The notes under the pieces are model-generated. The model saw only the letters and a program-made list of their open reading frames with translations, was not told the origin of the DNA and did no database searches. From contig CALWDZ010000005.1 in the NCBI GenBank assembly GCA_944376845.1, positions 1-64,000 of the forward strand: DNA of 64,000 nucleotides. The letters run 5' to 3'. Made by a program: the position numbers and the translations under genes. Source of the stretch: an uncultured Clostridia bacterium (GTDB taxonomy: Bacteria; Bacillota; Clostridia; Christensenellales; UBA1242). Below, one piece after another: positions 41,521 through 46,713 of this stretch. Numbering within the stretch: the stretch's first letter is position 1; every line of letters begins with the position of its first letter.

Positions 41521-42227
41521 TAGTACAAGGAAAAAATGTTATCCGAGAACTTTTAAATAGCGGAAAGACAATAAACAAACTATATGTTCAAAACAACCTA
41601 AATGACAAAGTTAGCAATGACCTAATCTCACTTGCAAAGCAAAAAGGCGTAAAAATTGACTTTGTTCCAAAAGTTGTGCTTGACAGAAAATCAAATCACC
41701 ACCAAGGTTTTGTGTGCGAAACCACAGATTTTGAATACTCCACCATGGAAGAAATACTAGATAGCGAACAAGTTGGCAAAAGGTTTTTAGTGATTTTAGA
41801 TGGCATTGAAGACCCGCACAACCTAGGTGCAATTATAAGGACATGCGAATGTGCTGGTGTTACTGGTGTTATTATTCCCGATAGACGTGCTTGCCAAGTT
41901 AATGACACCGTAATAAAAACAAGTGCCGGGGCTACCACTAATATAAAAATTGCACGCGTGAACAATTTAAATAATTTGGTTTTAGATTTAAAAAAACAAG
42001 ATATATGGGTTTACGCTTTGGAACTTGGCGGAAAAAATATTTACGACACTAATTTAACGGGAGATATTGCCATAGTTGTTGGCAGTGAAGGCTATGGCGT
42101 TTCAAGGCTATTAAAACAAAATTGTGATGATGTGATGTCTTTAATGCAAAAAGGAAAAGTGAATAGTCTAAACGCAAGTGTTGCAGCAGGCATTGCAATT
42201 TATGAGGCACTAAGACAAAGATGCTAA
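41517..42227 (+). CDS. rlmB: 23S rRNA (guanosine-2'-O-)-methyltransferase, TrmH/SpoU family
   Basis: 236 aa from a GTG start overlapping mrnC by 4 bp. The N-terminal substrate-binding domain is followed by the SPOUT knot: LDGIEDPHNLGAIIRTCECAGVTGVI, IVVGSEGYGVSRLL and SLNASVAAGIAIYEALR. Modifies the ribosomal peptidyl-transferase region. The last codons overlap the start of the sigma-factor gene by 7 bp. Confidence 0.93.
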   Translation: MIVQGKNVIRELLNSGKTINKLYVQNNLNDKVSNDLISLAKQKGVKIDFVPKVVLDRKSNHHQGFVCETTDFEYSTMEEILDSEQVGKRFLVILDGIEDPHNLGAIIRTCECAGVTGVIIPDRRACQVNDTVIKTSAGATTNIKIARVNNLNNLVLDLKKQDIWVYALELGGKNIYDTNLTGDIAIVVGSEGYGVSRLLKQNCDDVMSLMQKGKVNSLNASVAAGIAIYEALRQRC

Positions 42228-42817
42228 CAGATAACGAACTAATAAAAAAAGCAAGGTCTGGTGACAGCCTTGCACTTGATGCACTTATGGCACGATATAA
42301 AAAACTTGCAAGCAAAATTGCAAGAAGTTATTTTTTAATTGGTGCAGAGTATGACGACTTACTCCAAGAAGCAATGATTGGACTTTACAAGGCATACACA
42401 AACTATGACCCATCTTCTTCAACATCTTTTTCTACTTTTGCCCATATGTGTATCACCCGCAATGTGCAAAGCGCCATTAAACTAGCCAACCGAAAGAAAA
42501 ACTCTTTTTTAAACCAAAGCCTAACATTAACAAGCCAAGGCGAAGTTACAAATGATGATGAAGAAATAACCTTGATGTTGGCTTCTAAAAACCTGTCCCC
42601 TGACGAAAAACTTATTCAAAATGAAAATCTAAGCGACATAAAAACAAAGATATTAGCCACCTTGTCAGCATTTGAACAAAAAGTGTTATCACTATACCTA
42701 AAAGGTTATTCTTATAAGGACATCTCCACACGCCTAAATGTCACAAGCAAAAGCATTGACAACGCTTTAAGTAGAATAAGAAAGAAGTTGGCATTTTTAA
42801 ATAACTATTTCAAATAA
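42221..42817 (+). CDS. sigH: RNA polymerase sigma factor, SigH type
   Basis: 198 aa. Region 2 (DDLLQEAMIGLYKAYTNYDPS, SFSTFAHMCITRNVQSAI) and region 4 (LSAFEQKVLSLYLKGYSYKDI...SIDNALSRIRKKL) match sigma-70 family group III/SigH. In Bacillus, SigH drives competence and early sporulation genes, including spo0A. Here the next gene downstream encodes a Spo0A-type domain. Overlaps rlmB and ends in a terminator shared with that gene. Confidence 0.88.
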   Translation: MLTDNELIKKARSGDSLALDALMARYKKLASKIARSYFLIGAEYDDLLQEAMIGLYKAYTNYDPSSSTSFSTFAHMCITRNVQSAIKLANRKKNSFLNQSLTLTSQGEVTNDDEEITLMLASKNLSPDEKLIQNENLSDIKTKILATLSAFEQKVLSLYLKGYSYKDISTRLNVTSKSIDNALSRIRKKLAFLNNYFK

Positions 42818-42862
42818 AAAAGACTACCAAAAAAATTAGATAGCCCGGGCAGTCTTTTTTTT
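42816..42862. terminator. bidirectional terminator after sigH
   Basis: AAAAAAGACTACC pairs with GGCAGTCTTTTTT (one mismatch). The stem resembles the ends of the hairpin repeat at 49695-49824. It overlaps the stop codons of both convergent genes. Confidence 0.75.
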
Positions 42863-43553
42863 ATTCAAAGTGTTTTCTATCGCTATATATAACTTTATTT
42901 AATAGATAAGCAATCATCTCTTTAACTGTCGGAGACTTGCGACATTTTGAAATATTATAAAACAATTGCTTGTCCTCACAACTTTCAAACGCACGCTTAA
43001 TTGCAAACCTTATCGCTCTTTCAACACTTGCTGGTTCTGTGTTATATTTTGTTGCTATAATTGGATATGTTTCAACACACTTTTTGTTTTTAACTTTTGT
43101 TCTATAATGTTCATAAACAATATCTGTAAGATATTTTGTACCTATATGTTTTGGTCTAAAGAATAAACTATCGAGTTCATCATTGACGATAACATAGCAA
43201 TACATCTTTTTACCTTCAAGTTCTTCATCTGACAAAAGATTATCTCTTCTTATTCTATTTATTGCTTTATCCATACTATCAAACATAATTATGTTTTTCT
43301 TAAGACCGTTATATGTAGTGTCCAAATAATAAAACTTTTTGACATCAGCAAGGTCTTCAAGTTGTTGATATGTTGCATTAACATCTTTGTCCACCACAAT
43401 AAAAGAAGATTCACTTCCAAGCAAGATGTACATAAGTTCGTCAAGAGTGGTGCAATCAAAAAAATACATATGCATTTTTGTACAAAAGTCTTTTAATTTG
43501 TTAAAATTTTCGCCCTTATCTTTATAAAAGTATATGACGGAGTTATCTTTCAT
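42861..43553 (-). CDS. Spo0A C-terminal-domain transcription factor
   Basis: 230 aa from the ATG at 43553 (AAAGGAG upstream). The C-terminal 100 residues match the Spo0A DNA-binding domain: GTKYLTDIVYEHYRTKV, then YPIIATKYNTEPASVERAIR (helix-turn-helix with the RAIR signature) and SPTVKEMIAYLL. The first 120 residues do not clearly show a receiver domain with the phospho-Asp pocket, so it may not be phosphorelay-controlled. A 0A box (TGTCGAA) covers its own transcription start, and an array of them lies further upstream. Likely an autoregulated regulator rather than classical Spo0A. Confidence 0.75.
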   Translation of the reverse strand: MKDNSVIYFYKDKGENFNKLKDFCTKMHMYFFDCTTLDELMYILLGSESSFIVVDKDVNATYQQLEDLADVKKFYYLDTTYNGLKKNIIMFDSMDKAINRIRRDNLLSDEELEGKKMYCYVIVNDELDSLFFRPKHIGTKYLTDIVYEHYRTKVKNKKCVETYPIIATKYNTEPASVERAIRFAIKRAFESCEDKQLFYNISKCRKSPTVKEMIAYLLNKVIYSDRKHFE

Positions 43554-43569
43554 TATATTTTCTCCTTTT

Positions 43570-43576
43570 TTCGACA
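43570..43576 (-). promoter_or_regulatory. 0A box at the transcription start of the Spo0A-domain gene
   Basis: Exact TGTCGAA on the minus strand, just downstream of the -10, where binding would block transcription. Confidence 0.6.
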
Positions 43577-43578
43577 AA

Positions 43579-43607
43579 ATTTTATCATAAATAATTTAAT
43601 AGGTCAA
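43579..43607 (-). promoter_or_regulatory. promoter of the Spo0A-domain gene
   Basis: Minus strand: -35 TTGACC (43607-43602), 17-bp spacer, -10 TAAAAT (43584-43579). Confidence 0.7.
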
Positions 43608-43671
43608 TAGAATTTTTAAAATTTTTATTTTTTTACAAAATTTTTGTGTTTTGTAAAAAATGTTTTTACTA

Positions 43672-43700
43672 TTGTTTTTCGTATGTTGGGGTTGTATAAT
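43672..43700 (+). promoter_or_regulatory. promoter entering the 0A-box array
   Basis: -35 TTGTTT (43672-43677), 17-bp spacer, exact -10 TATAAT (43695-43700), reading toward the small HTH gene. The 0A-box array begins directly after it. Confidence 0.55.
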
Positions 43701-43746
43701 ATGACATCTTTCGACATCGTTCGACACCGTTCTACATATTTCGACA
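43700..43746 (-). promoter_or_regulatory. 10-bp-phased array of 0A boxes
   Basis: TGTCGAA (minus strand) at 43740-43746, 43720-43726 and 43710-43716, and the variant TGTAGAA at 43730-43736; a degenerate fifth copy is at 43700-43706. Spacing is exactly one helical turn, so bound molecules would line one DNA face. TGTCGAA is the core of the Spo0A site. Confidence 0.75.
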
Positions 43747-43807
43747 CAAAAATATGTAGTAATTATATTTTTAGTCATAAAAATCGTTAAGTTTATACTC
43801 GGGGCGT

Positions 43808-44005
43808 ATGGAATTTGGCCACAATTTCAAATACTATAGGACTGTTTGTAATTTGACCCAAAGACAAGTGGCCAAACTTTTAGGTATTGCTCAAACCAAC
43901 ATCTCTAACTGGGAAAATAATCACACTCGCCCAGAATATGAGCATCTTGTTAAACTTTCCACCATATATGGTGTTTCTATTGATAAACTTCTTGGAATAC
44001 AATAA
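43808..44005 (+). CDS. small Xre-family HTH protein
   Basis: 65 aa, one complete HTH_3 domain: LTQRQVAKLLGIAQTNISNWENNHTRP and VSIDKLLG. No second domain. TATACT (43794-43799) ends 8 nt before the ATG; no ordinary ribosome site, so the mRNA is probably leaderless from that promoter, or longer from the promoter at 43672. Divergent from the Spo0A-domain gene and likely part of the same switch. Confidence 0.8.
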   Translation: MEFGHNFKYYRTVCNLTQRQVAKLLGIAQTNISNWENNHTRPEYEHLVKLSTIYGVSIDKLLGIQ

Positions 44006-44006
44006 T

Positions 44007-44321
44007 TTATTTTTTTTGTTGTTTCATATATTTAATTTCATCTTTAAGTTTATTTAGTTTTTTATCTATAATACTATCTATATTATAATCTTTAAAAAAG
44101 TACATCATTTGCTCTAGGCATAAACTTACATCTGCAATTTCTTCTACTACGCTTTCGGCTACATCTTTACCTTTATATTCGCCGTACAAAACTTTTCTTT
44201 TATACTTGTTTATTGCAACAGTAAGTTCCGCCATTTCTTCTATGCACTGGTCATATTGCGCAACAAGTCCCCATAAAGTTGTTGCTTCATCGTAGACTTT
44301 TAATCTTTCCTCTTTTGTCAT
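44007..44321 (-). CDS. MazG-like nucleotide pyrophosphohydrolase
   Basis: 104 aa. The all-alpha NTP-PPase pattern is visible: EEMAELTVAINK with the EExxE metal site, and VEEIADVSLCLEQM with the ExxD part. Members remove non-canonical or excess (d)NTPs. AGGAGG is present before the ATG. It faces nrdD, which makes dNTPs, across a 271-bp AT-rich gap; the functional link is only suggestive. Confidence 0.8.
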   Translation of the reverse strand: MTKEERLKVYDEATTLWGLVAQYDQCIEEMAELTVAINKYKRKVLYGEYKGKDVAESVVEEIADVSLCLEQMMYFFKDYNIDSIIDKKLNKLKDEIKYMKQQKK

Positions 44322-44523
44322 ACTCCTCCTTTTGTATACACTAACATATCAAATAATTTTTGTTTTTACAATCTTTTTTTATTAAAACATTTTTTTTGTT
44401 GTTGTTTTATAACAACTTTTTTTTATTAAATTTAAAGATGCATAAAAACTCAAAAAAATTCATATTTATTTTTCAAAAAAACGCTTGCTTTAAGTCATTT
44501 TGCGTGCTATCATTTTGTTATAT

Positions 44524-44570
44524 TTTCAATATATAGTGTAAAAAATTTTCAAAACCACAATATATTGTAA
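44524..44570. promoter_or_regulatory. tandem NrdR boxes upstream of nrdD
   Basis: Two copies of the NrdR core: CAATATATAG (44527-44536, then TGT) and CAATATATTG (44558-44567, after CCA). They are 31 bp apart, three helical turns, as is usual for NrdR operators (consensus ACACWATATATWGTGT). NrdR represses ribonucleotide reductase operons when dATP is high. Confidence 0.75.
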
Positions 44571-44592
44571 AAATATTTAAAGGAGTCTACAT

Positions 44593-46713
44593 ATGGTACA
44601 AGTAATAAAAAAAGATGGAAGTTTGGAAGATTACGACATCAATAAGGTCGTAAAAGCGGTTTCAAAGTCGGCTGAAAGAGTTCTTGTTAAATTTACAGAC
44701 GAGGACATAAAGAAATTATGCGATCGTGTAAATAGTAATGTAGAAAAACTTGGACAAGACAATGTTCCAATTCTCACTATGCACAGCATTGTTGAAGAAG
44801 CACTTGAAACTTATTTCCCAAAAGTTGCAAAAAGTTATAAGGACTATCGTGACTATAAGCAAGATTTTGTTGCAATGCTTGATGATGTATATCAAAAAAG
44901 TCAATCTATAATGTACATTGGCGACAAGGAAAACGCAAATTGCGACTCTACGCTTGTATCTACAAAAAGGAGTTTGATATTCAATCAACTAAACAAAGAG
45001 TTATACAAAAAGTTCTTCTTGAATAAAGATGAAATTCAAGCAATAAACGACGGCTACATTTACATTCACGATATGTCGGCTCGCCGTGACACAATGAATT
45101 GTTGTTTGTTCAATGTGGAAGAGGTTTTGTCTGGTGGTTTTGAAATGGGAAATGTTTGGTATAACGAACCAAAGACACTAGATGTTGCTTTTGACGTAAT
45201 TGGAGATATCGTTCTTTCTGCTGCAAGTCAGCAATATGGCGGATTTACAATACCAGAGTGCGATAAACTCCTTGTAAAGTATGCAAAAAAATCATATGAA
45301 AAATGGTATAACAAATATAAAAACTTGGGGCTTAGTGACGATGTTTGCCACTCTGAAGCCATGAAAGATGTACAGTATGAAATGAAACAAGGCTTCCAAG
45401 GTTGGGAGTATAAATTCAATACAGTTGCATCCTCGCGTGGTGATTATCCATTTATTGCAACAACATGCGGGCTTGCTACCGATGAATTTGGTAAAATGGC
45501 AGCAAAAACACTTCTTGAAGTCAGAAAAAATGGTCAAGGTAAAGCGGAATGCAAAAAACCAGTACTCTTCCCTAAGATTATATTCTTATATGATAAAAAT
45601 CTTCATGCAGAAGGCAAACCATGCCACGACGTTTTCCTTGCCGGAATTGAATGCTCCTCAAAAACCATGTATCCTGATTGGCTAAGTCTTACAGGAGAAG
45701 GGTATGTTGCAAGTATGTACAAAAAATATGGTCTTGCAATTAGCCCTATGGGTTGTCGTGCGTTTTTGTCACCTTGGTATGAACGTGGCGGAATGAAACC
45801 AGCCGACGAAAATGATAAACCTGTATTTGTTGGAAGATTTAATGTCGGCGCTGTGAGTTTGCATCTACCTATGATACTTGCCAAAGCAAGAAAAGAAAAT
45901 CGTGATTTCTATGAAGTGCTTGATTACTACCTTGAAATGATAAGAAATCTACACAAACGTACATATGAATATCTTGGAGAGATGCGTGCGTCTGTAAATC
46001 CACTCGCCTACTGCGAAGGAGGTTTCTATGGCGGGCACTTAAAATATAACGAAAAAATTAAACCATTGCTTAAAACCGCAACTGCATCTTTTGGAATTAC
46101 TGCACTAAATGAACTTCAAATGCTTTATAACCACAAATCTTTAAAAGAAGACGGCGAATTTGCACTTGAAGTTATGAAATATATAAACGACAAAGTGGCG
46201 CAGTTTAAAGAAGAAGACGGAAATCTTTATGCAATATACGGCACTCCCGCTGAAAATCTATGCGGACTTCAAATACAACAATTTAGAAGATTTTATGGCA
46301 TAGTTGAAGGCGTTTCAGACAAGCCATATGTTTCAAATAGTTTCCACTGCCACGTGACCGAAGATATTTCACCTATTGAAAAACAAGATAAGGAAAATAG
46401 ATTTTGGAATTTATTTAATGGTGGAAAAATTCAATATGTAAGATATCCTATTGACTATAATAAACAAGCATTTGTAACACTTGTAGAGCGGGCTATGGAT
46501 ATGGGATTTTATGAAGGTGTAAACCTTTCGCTTTCATATTGTGATGATTGTGGGCACTCAGAACTAGATATGGATGTTTGTCCAAAGTGCGGAAGCAAAA
46601 ACTTAACTAAAATTGACAGAATGAATGGCTATCTTGCCTACTCACGCGTTAAAGGAGATTCAAGACTAAACGATGCCAAAATGGCTGAAATTAAAGATAG
46701 ACGGAGTATGTAA
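44593..46713 (+). CDS. nrdD: anaerobic ribonucleoside-triphosphate reductase
   Basis: 706 aa. N-terminal ATP cone (MVQVIKKDGSLEDYDINKVVKAV), the class III core (DGYIYIHDMSARRDTMNCCLFN), a C-terminal zinc site (CDDCGHSELDMDVCPKC) and the glycyl-radical motif RMNGYLA with Gly679. Makes dNTPs without oxygen, so the cell can live anaerobically. AGGAG precedes the ATG; two NrdR boxes control it. nrdG starts directly after the stop. Confidence 0.97.
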   Translation: MVQVIKKDGSLEDYDINKVVKAVSKSAERVLVKFTDEDIKKLCDRVNSNVEKLGQDNVPILTMHSIVEEALETYFPKVAKSYKDYRDYKQDFVAMLDDVYQKSQSIMYIGDKENANCDSTLVSTKRSLIFNQLNKELYKKFFLNKDEIQAINDGYIYIHDMSARRDTMNCCLFNVEEVLSGGFEMGNVWYNEPKTLDVAFDVIGDIVLSAASQQYGGFTIPECDKLLVKYAKKSYEKWYNKYKNLGLSDDVCHSEAMKDVQYEMKQGFQGWEYKFNTVASSRGDYPFIATTCGLATDEFGKMAAKTLLEVRKNGQGKAECKKPVLFPKIIFLYDKNLHAEGKPCHDVFLAGIECSSKTMYPDWLSLTGEGYVASMYKKYGLAISPMGCRAFLSPWYERGGMKPADENDKPVFVGRFNVGAVSLHLPMILAKARKENRDFYEVLDYYLEMIRNLHKRTYEYLGEMRASVNPLAYCEGGFYGGHLKYNEKIKPLLKTATASFGITALNELQMLYNHKSLKEDGEFALEVMKYINDKVAQFKEEDGNLYAIYGTPAENLCGLQIQQFRRFYGIVEGVSDKPYVSNSFHCHVTEDISPIEKQDKENRFWNLFNGGKIQYVRYPIDYNKQAFVTLVERAMDMGFYEGVNLSLSYCDDCGHSELDMDVCPKCGSKNLTKIDRMNGYLAYSRVKGDSRLNDAKMAEIKDRRSM

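Follow-up and report, generated by a model that had tools for sequence, protein, structure and literature searches.

A helically phased array of Spo0A-type boxes beside a gene for a Spo0A paralog with a degenerate receiver in an uncultured Clostridia bacterium

The window analysed here, a stretch of 64,000 nucleotides from the genome of an uncultured Clostridia bacterium (G000), carries five 0A-type boxes arranged at 10-bp steps on the reverse strand (43700..43746), between the genes for a Spo0A paralog and for a small XRE-type regulator. As both the spacing of the boxes and their distance to a promoter are kept in relatives, the array looks like a genuine control element. The explanation that we somewhat favour is that it is an operator for a DNA-binding domain of the Spo0A family, with the paralog as its main reader, which would negatively regulate its own gene and control the XRE gene.

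Array of 0A-type boxes

Spo0A boxes with the sequence TGTCGAA are known, for example, from the abrB and spo0A promoters of B. subtilis, and the reverse complement of this heptamer is TTCGACA, in which form the array is written on the forward strand. Positions 43700-43749 of this strand consist of the successive units TATGACAtct, TTCGACAtcg, TTCGACAccg, TTCTACAtat and TTCGACAcaa, all five sharing one orientation and starting exactly 10 bp apart. The heptamer is exact in the units starting at 43710, 43720 and 43740, matches at six of seven positions in that at 43730 (TTCTACA) and at five of seven in that at 43700 (TATGACA); the preliminary description, which spoke of four copies plus a degenerate one at 10-bp steps, was right if TTCTACA is counted as a copy. 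The heptamers stand as direct repeats, as in a 0A-box operator, and the exact units retain G2, C4 and G5, the bases contacted in the 0A box (PMC3485338).

Across the window the enrichment of TGTCGAA is weak, with 10 occurrences against 5.6 expected, four of the 10 lying at the present site. The five-step score of the array, 32 out of 35, lies far beyond chance; in 200 Markov-simulated 64-kb sequences, each represented by its best five-step score, the mean was 21.4 and the maximum 24, and among steps of 7-24 bp the 10-bp step alone stands out. Exact adjacent box pairs occur at only two places in the 1.02-Mb genome, in this array and in a second one (contig C10, 23675-23711), the latter being the one further TGTCGAA array found in the genome search that had been proposed earlier. 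Inverted repeats situated just after the array (e.g. CTACATATTT...AAATATGTAG) are AT-rich and lacking in relatives, and a search of 42800-44650 for known RNA families found none.

Spo0A paralog and its promoter

The gene on one side of the array (42861..43553, reverse strand) encodes a protein of 230 aa with a pseudo-receiver at approximately residues 1-105 and a Spo0A_C DNA-binding domain at residues 124-220. The latter is recognised by Pfam (PF08769, 53.9 bits with a cut-off of 25, E 2e-14), and in Foldseek the model of the DNA-binding half aligns with 1lq1, a complex of Spo0A with DNA (TM 0.81 to target). The N-terminus has no receiver-domain match in Pfam and a weak structural match to receiver domains in Foldseek, and in the AlphaFold model, which was built from 13 sequences and has a mean pLDDT of 87, it is receiver-like without helix 4. 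The combination of acidic pair, phospho-Asp and Lys expected in a functional receiver is not found: Y10 and K11 stand where the acidic pair would be, and the phospho-Asp position, 55, is occupied by D, S, N or E among the paralog orthologs. It is because of the lost acidic pair and the variable phospho-Asp position that the domain is called a pseudo-receiver here. Residues E178 and R182 are invariant in the paralog and belong to the helix that corresponds to VERAIRH in canonical Spo0A; this helix has VER or IER in the close paralogs of the genus (group A, see below) and IEK in most of the distant ones (group B), with VER in canonical Spo0A.

A separate canonical Spo0A is encoded on another contig of the same genome (C8, 41984). 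Judged by its sequence and predicted structure, the neighbour of the array is a paralog of Spo0A, specific to this lineage and degenerate in its receiver, so that the "Spo0A-domain gene" of the preliminary description does possess the domain and is not the genome's Spo0A. Convergent with the paralog gene lies a gene for a sigma-70-type factor (42221..42817, forward strand), which we take to be SigH-like from the gene order mini-III RNase, rlmB, sigH.

The predicted sigma-A-type promoter of the paralog (43579..43607, reverse strand) reads TTGACC-17-TAAAAT, and TTGACC or a similar -35 element is seen in the upstream regions of group-A paralogs. A single exact 0A box (43570..43576, reverse strand; TGTCGAA on the coding strand) covers the predicted transcription start, being situated between the predicted -10 element (TAAAAT, 43584-43579, reverse strand) and the Shine-Dalgarno sequence, and had already been noticed at this place. 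Occupied by the paralog, it would hold the paralog's own gene down. Of the strong cooperative autoregulation suggested in the preliminary description, the box at the paralog start is confirmed, and two points have to be amended: the box predicts negative feedback, and the array is tied to the promoter of the XRE gene too.

XRE regulator gene and its promoters

On the other side of the array, a small XRE-type HTH regulator of 65 aa (HTH_3, E 6e-15) is encoded at 43808..44005 on the forward strand. The protein possesses the XRE HTH domain of a SinR-like switch and consists of HTH only, the SinR-like C-terminal oligomerisation domain being absent, and no ORF for a SinI-type partner was found beside the gene. 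Two candidate promoters are present on the forward strand, of which P1 (43672..43700, TTGTTT-17-TATAAT) would start transcription inside the array and is absent from the aligned sequence of G012. The other, P2 (43772..43799, TAGTCA-16-TATACT), belongs to the HTH gene: each of the five HTH genes of group A has TATACT 6-8 bp 5' of its ATG, and their group-B orthologs have it a short way 5' of the start codon too, a proximity that suggests a leaderless HTH mRNA. The distance from the last box to TATACT as the -10 element is 47 bp in four of the five species and 49 bp in G006, and it is kept in G004 though the intervening sequence has diverged. Nothing else speaks as strongly as this constant spacing for an action of the array on the HTH promoter.

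Conservation within the genus

Seventeen genomes of the genus, including G000, were compared, the named relatives being uncultured Clostridia and Christensenella-like metagenome genomes. Eight of them, G000 among these, have a close paralog and form group A, the other seven paralogs being 56-76% identical to that of G000; seven more (group B) have a distant paralog with 32-40% identity, and in two genomes no paralog was detected. The box at the paralog start is present in 8/8 group-A species and absent in group B. Phased boxes adjoin either the paralog or the HTH gene in all eight group-A genomes, and 43 of the 45 box-to-box spacings of no more than 50 bp in these regions are exactly divisible by 10; the alignment of related genomes called for earlier thus shows the 10-bp spacing to be kept in eight species. 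In G005, G008 and G016 the third array unit has decayed and units 4 and 5 are still in register. Fixed-phase looping between the single box and the array was considered and dropped, as the distance from that box to the first exact array box varies between species from 139 to 171 bp.

The HTH gene is missing from its position at the paralog side in four of the eight group-A species (G005, G008, G016 and G012). G012 carries the HTH gene together with the array at another locus, away from the paralog; in the other three no close HTH ortholog was found though the array persists, and the HTH gene is therefore not the sole use of the array. Binding of the array by the XRE HTH protein, with regulation of its own gene, is suggested by the adjacency of gene and array and by their joint location in G012, and is nevertheless scarcely credible: arrays outlast the close HTH ortholog in three species, also follow ftsY and precede unrelated genes in other genera, and the group-B orthologs keep the QTNISxWEN helix and have no array. 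Only marginally better stands the proposal of a bistable switch formed by the paralog and the HTH protein through positive autoregulation, which the preliminary description had put forward and which finds no support here. The array does lie between the two genes, and tandem sites could give steep responses, yet the box over the paralog start predicts repression, the HTH gene is gone from this position in half of the species, and no HTH operator has been established at the paralog promoter, all of which makes such a switch improbable.

Group A is a single clade (support 0.999). All of its eight species have box pairs or arrays; in the scanned group-B and paralog-free species of the genus no triple array was found, and near-exact box pairs are almost missing. 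In group B the paralog gene is divergent from a gene for a secreted or membrane-anchored protein (L073 5358-7069 and relatives), and the latter is followed by a gene for a 211-aa protein which has no Pfam match and the start of which resembles the pseudo-receiver of the paralog.

Arrays elsewhere in the genus and in other Clostridia

Arrays of three or four boxes are located downstream of ftsY in G000, G008, G012 and G016, with a gene for a secreted protein after them in the first three genomes and none in G016. The secreted protein of G000 is of the BspA leucine-rich-repeat type according to Pfam, and those of G008 and G012 have a visibly similar N-terminus. The intergenic DNA that separates the ftsY-side array from the surface-protein gene contains repeats of the type GTCATTCTGAGCCGAAGGCGAAGAATCTC (L063 8180-8670, L120 3880-4100). 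In G012 a run of 15 G is found between -35-like and -10-like elements before the array-linked surface-protein gene (L109 3695-3709) and looks like a phase-variable promoter. Box pairs in the coding regions of mutS and of surface proteins (L117, L123, L124, L113, L115) were dismissed as coding.

Triple boxes, defined by 10-bp steps and no more than one mismatch, were detected in 11 of 391 genomes of the class Clostridia and in 11 of 309 genomes of the family, with zero matches to the reversed pattern used as a control in either scan. Phased 0A arrays are uncommon (about 3% of the other Clostridia sampled), recurrent and not new, so a density described at first as unusual is indeed uncommon and is not unique. 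In one genome (L242; G382, contig C73, 3026) the triple array immediately precedes the spoIIAA-spoIIAB-sigF operon, a classical target of Spo0A. In three species it lies by an alanine racemase gene next to a ribbon-helix-helix gene, and another context is a penicillin-binding protein gene; gene names at these arrays were assigned by reading the sequences. One series comprises approximately 15 Spo0A-type boxes, one every 10 bp, has a super-repeat of 40 bp and is situated just 3' of an RNase III gene (L247; G253, contig C41, 14758-14905).

No Spo0A_C gene was found beside the triple arrays of other Clostridia. Five array-bearing genomes outside the family (G161, G172, G186, G253 and G312) possess a divergent Spo0A_C protein only and none that scores as canonical, a state seen in none of 12 non-family control genomes; with the pattern noticed post hoc and the controls self-chosen, this is a lead rather than a test. 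In G172 a receiver-less Spo0A DNA-binding domain of 116 aa is encoded directly after recN (L315 2096-2446), which is the classical location of spo0A, and a penicillin-binding protein gene of the same genome is preceded by an array.

Canonical Spo0A

The DNA-binding domain of canonical Spo0A is nearly identical in groups A and B, with the VERAIRH helix unchanged, and across the genus a single near-box is conserved upstream of the canonical spo0A gene. Because this domain and the recognition helix of the HTH protein are unchanged in species without arrays and it is the paralog that differs, the neighbouring paralog appears to be the likeliest reader in the group-A clade; in evolutionary terms the contrast is nevertheless a single one, all group-A species belonging to one clade, and array and paralog may have become linked in one event.

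A less probable view is that canonical Spo0A reads the array as a strong site, which would place the XRE and paralog genes in the Spo0A regulon and make the paralog a mere target. With its intact helix canonical Spo0A probably reads the single box at its own promoter, and from the array before the spoIIA-sigF operon it follows that it can probably use such arrays; the triple arrays of other Clostridia without an adjacent Spo0A_C gene point the same way. Repression of sinR by Spo0A in C. difficile makes use of boxes scattered 230-274 bp upstream, one of which is TTCTACA, the same as the unit at 43730 (PMC7643835). What makes this view doubtful is that group-B species with the same Spo0A domain have neither arrays nor the box at the paralog start, and that the conserved sporulation promoters of the genus carry single boxes rather than arrays. 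Box-like pairs (TTCGACA-nnn-TTCAACA) before sigK had the look of a target and were assigned to the sigK promoter itself, the whole promoter block being kept in array-less species too.

In every readable species of the genus, Glu replaces the phosphoacceptor Asp of canonical Spo0A (MECVLP/LECxLP; L064 3508-4320, L148-L159) and D-N replaces the acidic pair; the phosphoacceptor Asp is retained in most other genera of the family examined. The 1.02-Mb genome of G000 is 99% complete and has spoIVA, spoIIGA, a sigG-like gene, sigK and spo0A, which makes the organism a candidate very small spore former.

Discussion

The binding protein, the cooperativity, the sign of regulation and the targets are what we infer from the features described. 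On tandem 0A boxes successive protomers of the Spo0A domain bind head to tail, and the Spo0A-family protomers would do so here, one per 10-bp box. Since the receiver of the paralog has no phosphorylation site, occupancy would follow the concentration of the paralog itself, or a ligand or partner, and not a kinase. With negative autoregulation exerted at the single box, the array, lying 47 bp from the -10 element of P2 and over the start of P1, would set the transcription of the XRE regulator, for which contact-dependent activation of P2 together with blockage of P1 is favoured because the distance between box and -10 element is fixed; repression is also possible. Similar arrays elsewhere may recruit the paralog as well, chiefly those downstream of ftsY before genes for secreted surface proteins.

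Canonical Spo0A can probably also bind the array boxes, and the two proteins may share the operator, competing or mixing there, so that the paralog would buffer or antagonise Spo0A at a few promoters. This view overlaps with both the paralog and canonical Spo0A as readers and is about as probable as the latter. The key E and R residues of Spo0A_C are present in both proteins, and both sets of sites are of the TGTCGAA type; on the other hand, no site clearly serving both proteins was found, and the single boxes of spo0A differ from the arrays in unit number.

Reading by the paralog, which we prefer, has parallels in known systems. Response regulators of the PhoP/OmpR type place tandem protomers on direct repeats of about 10-11 bp, and the present array resembles their sites in its helically phased direct repeats and differs in the DNA-binding fold and sequence. 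With classical Spo0A and its 0A boxes it shares the heptamer, the direct repeats and the family of the DNA-binding domain (complex 1lq1), the differences being the four to five consecutive units and the adjacent paralog without a working receiver. Control of a small XRE regulator by a Spo0A-family protein from upstream is established by C. difficile sinR, which also shows that repression is possible; Spo0A-type boxes including TTCTACA lie 5' of such a regulator in both cases, whereas here they form a phased array whose distance to a promoter, probably a leaderless one, is fixed, and are probably read by another member of the Spo0A family.

A wider and more speculative idea, which we hold with little confidence, is that the genus, with Glu in its canonical Spo0A, has abandoned phosphorelay input, and that the duplicate with the decayed receiver serves as a phosphorylation-independent reader of phased 0A arrays, through which it controls the XRE gene and genes for surface proteins; across Clostridia, regulons unrelated to sporulation may have arisen on arrays of this kind, served by Spo0A domains that are decayed or have no receiver. 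Should reading by the paralog hold true, a sporulation master regulator would have been duplicated, freed from phosphorylation and given operators of its own, and the sites with one to five boxes would form a natural series for measuring cooperative binding of the Spo0A domain. Arrays of 0A boxes at 10-bp steps may serve as a DNA signature for finding regulons of the Spo0A family in uncultured Clostridia.
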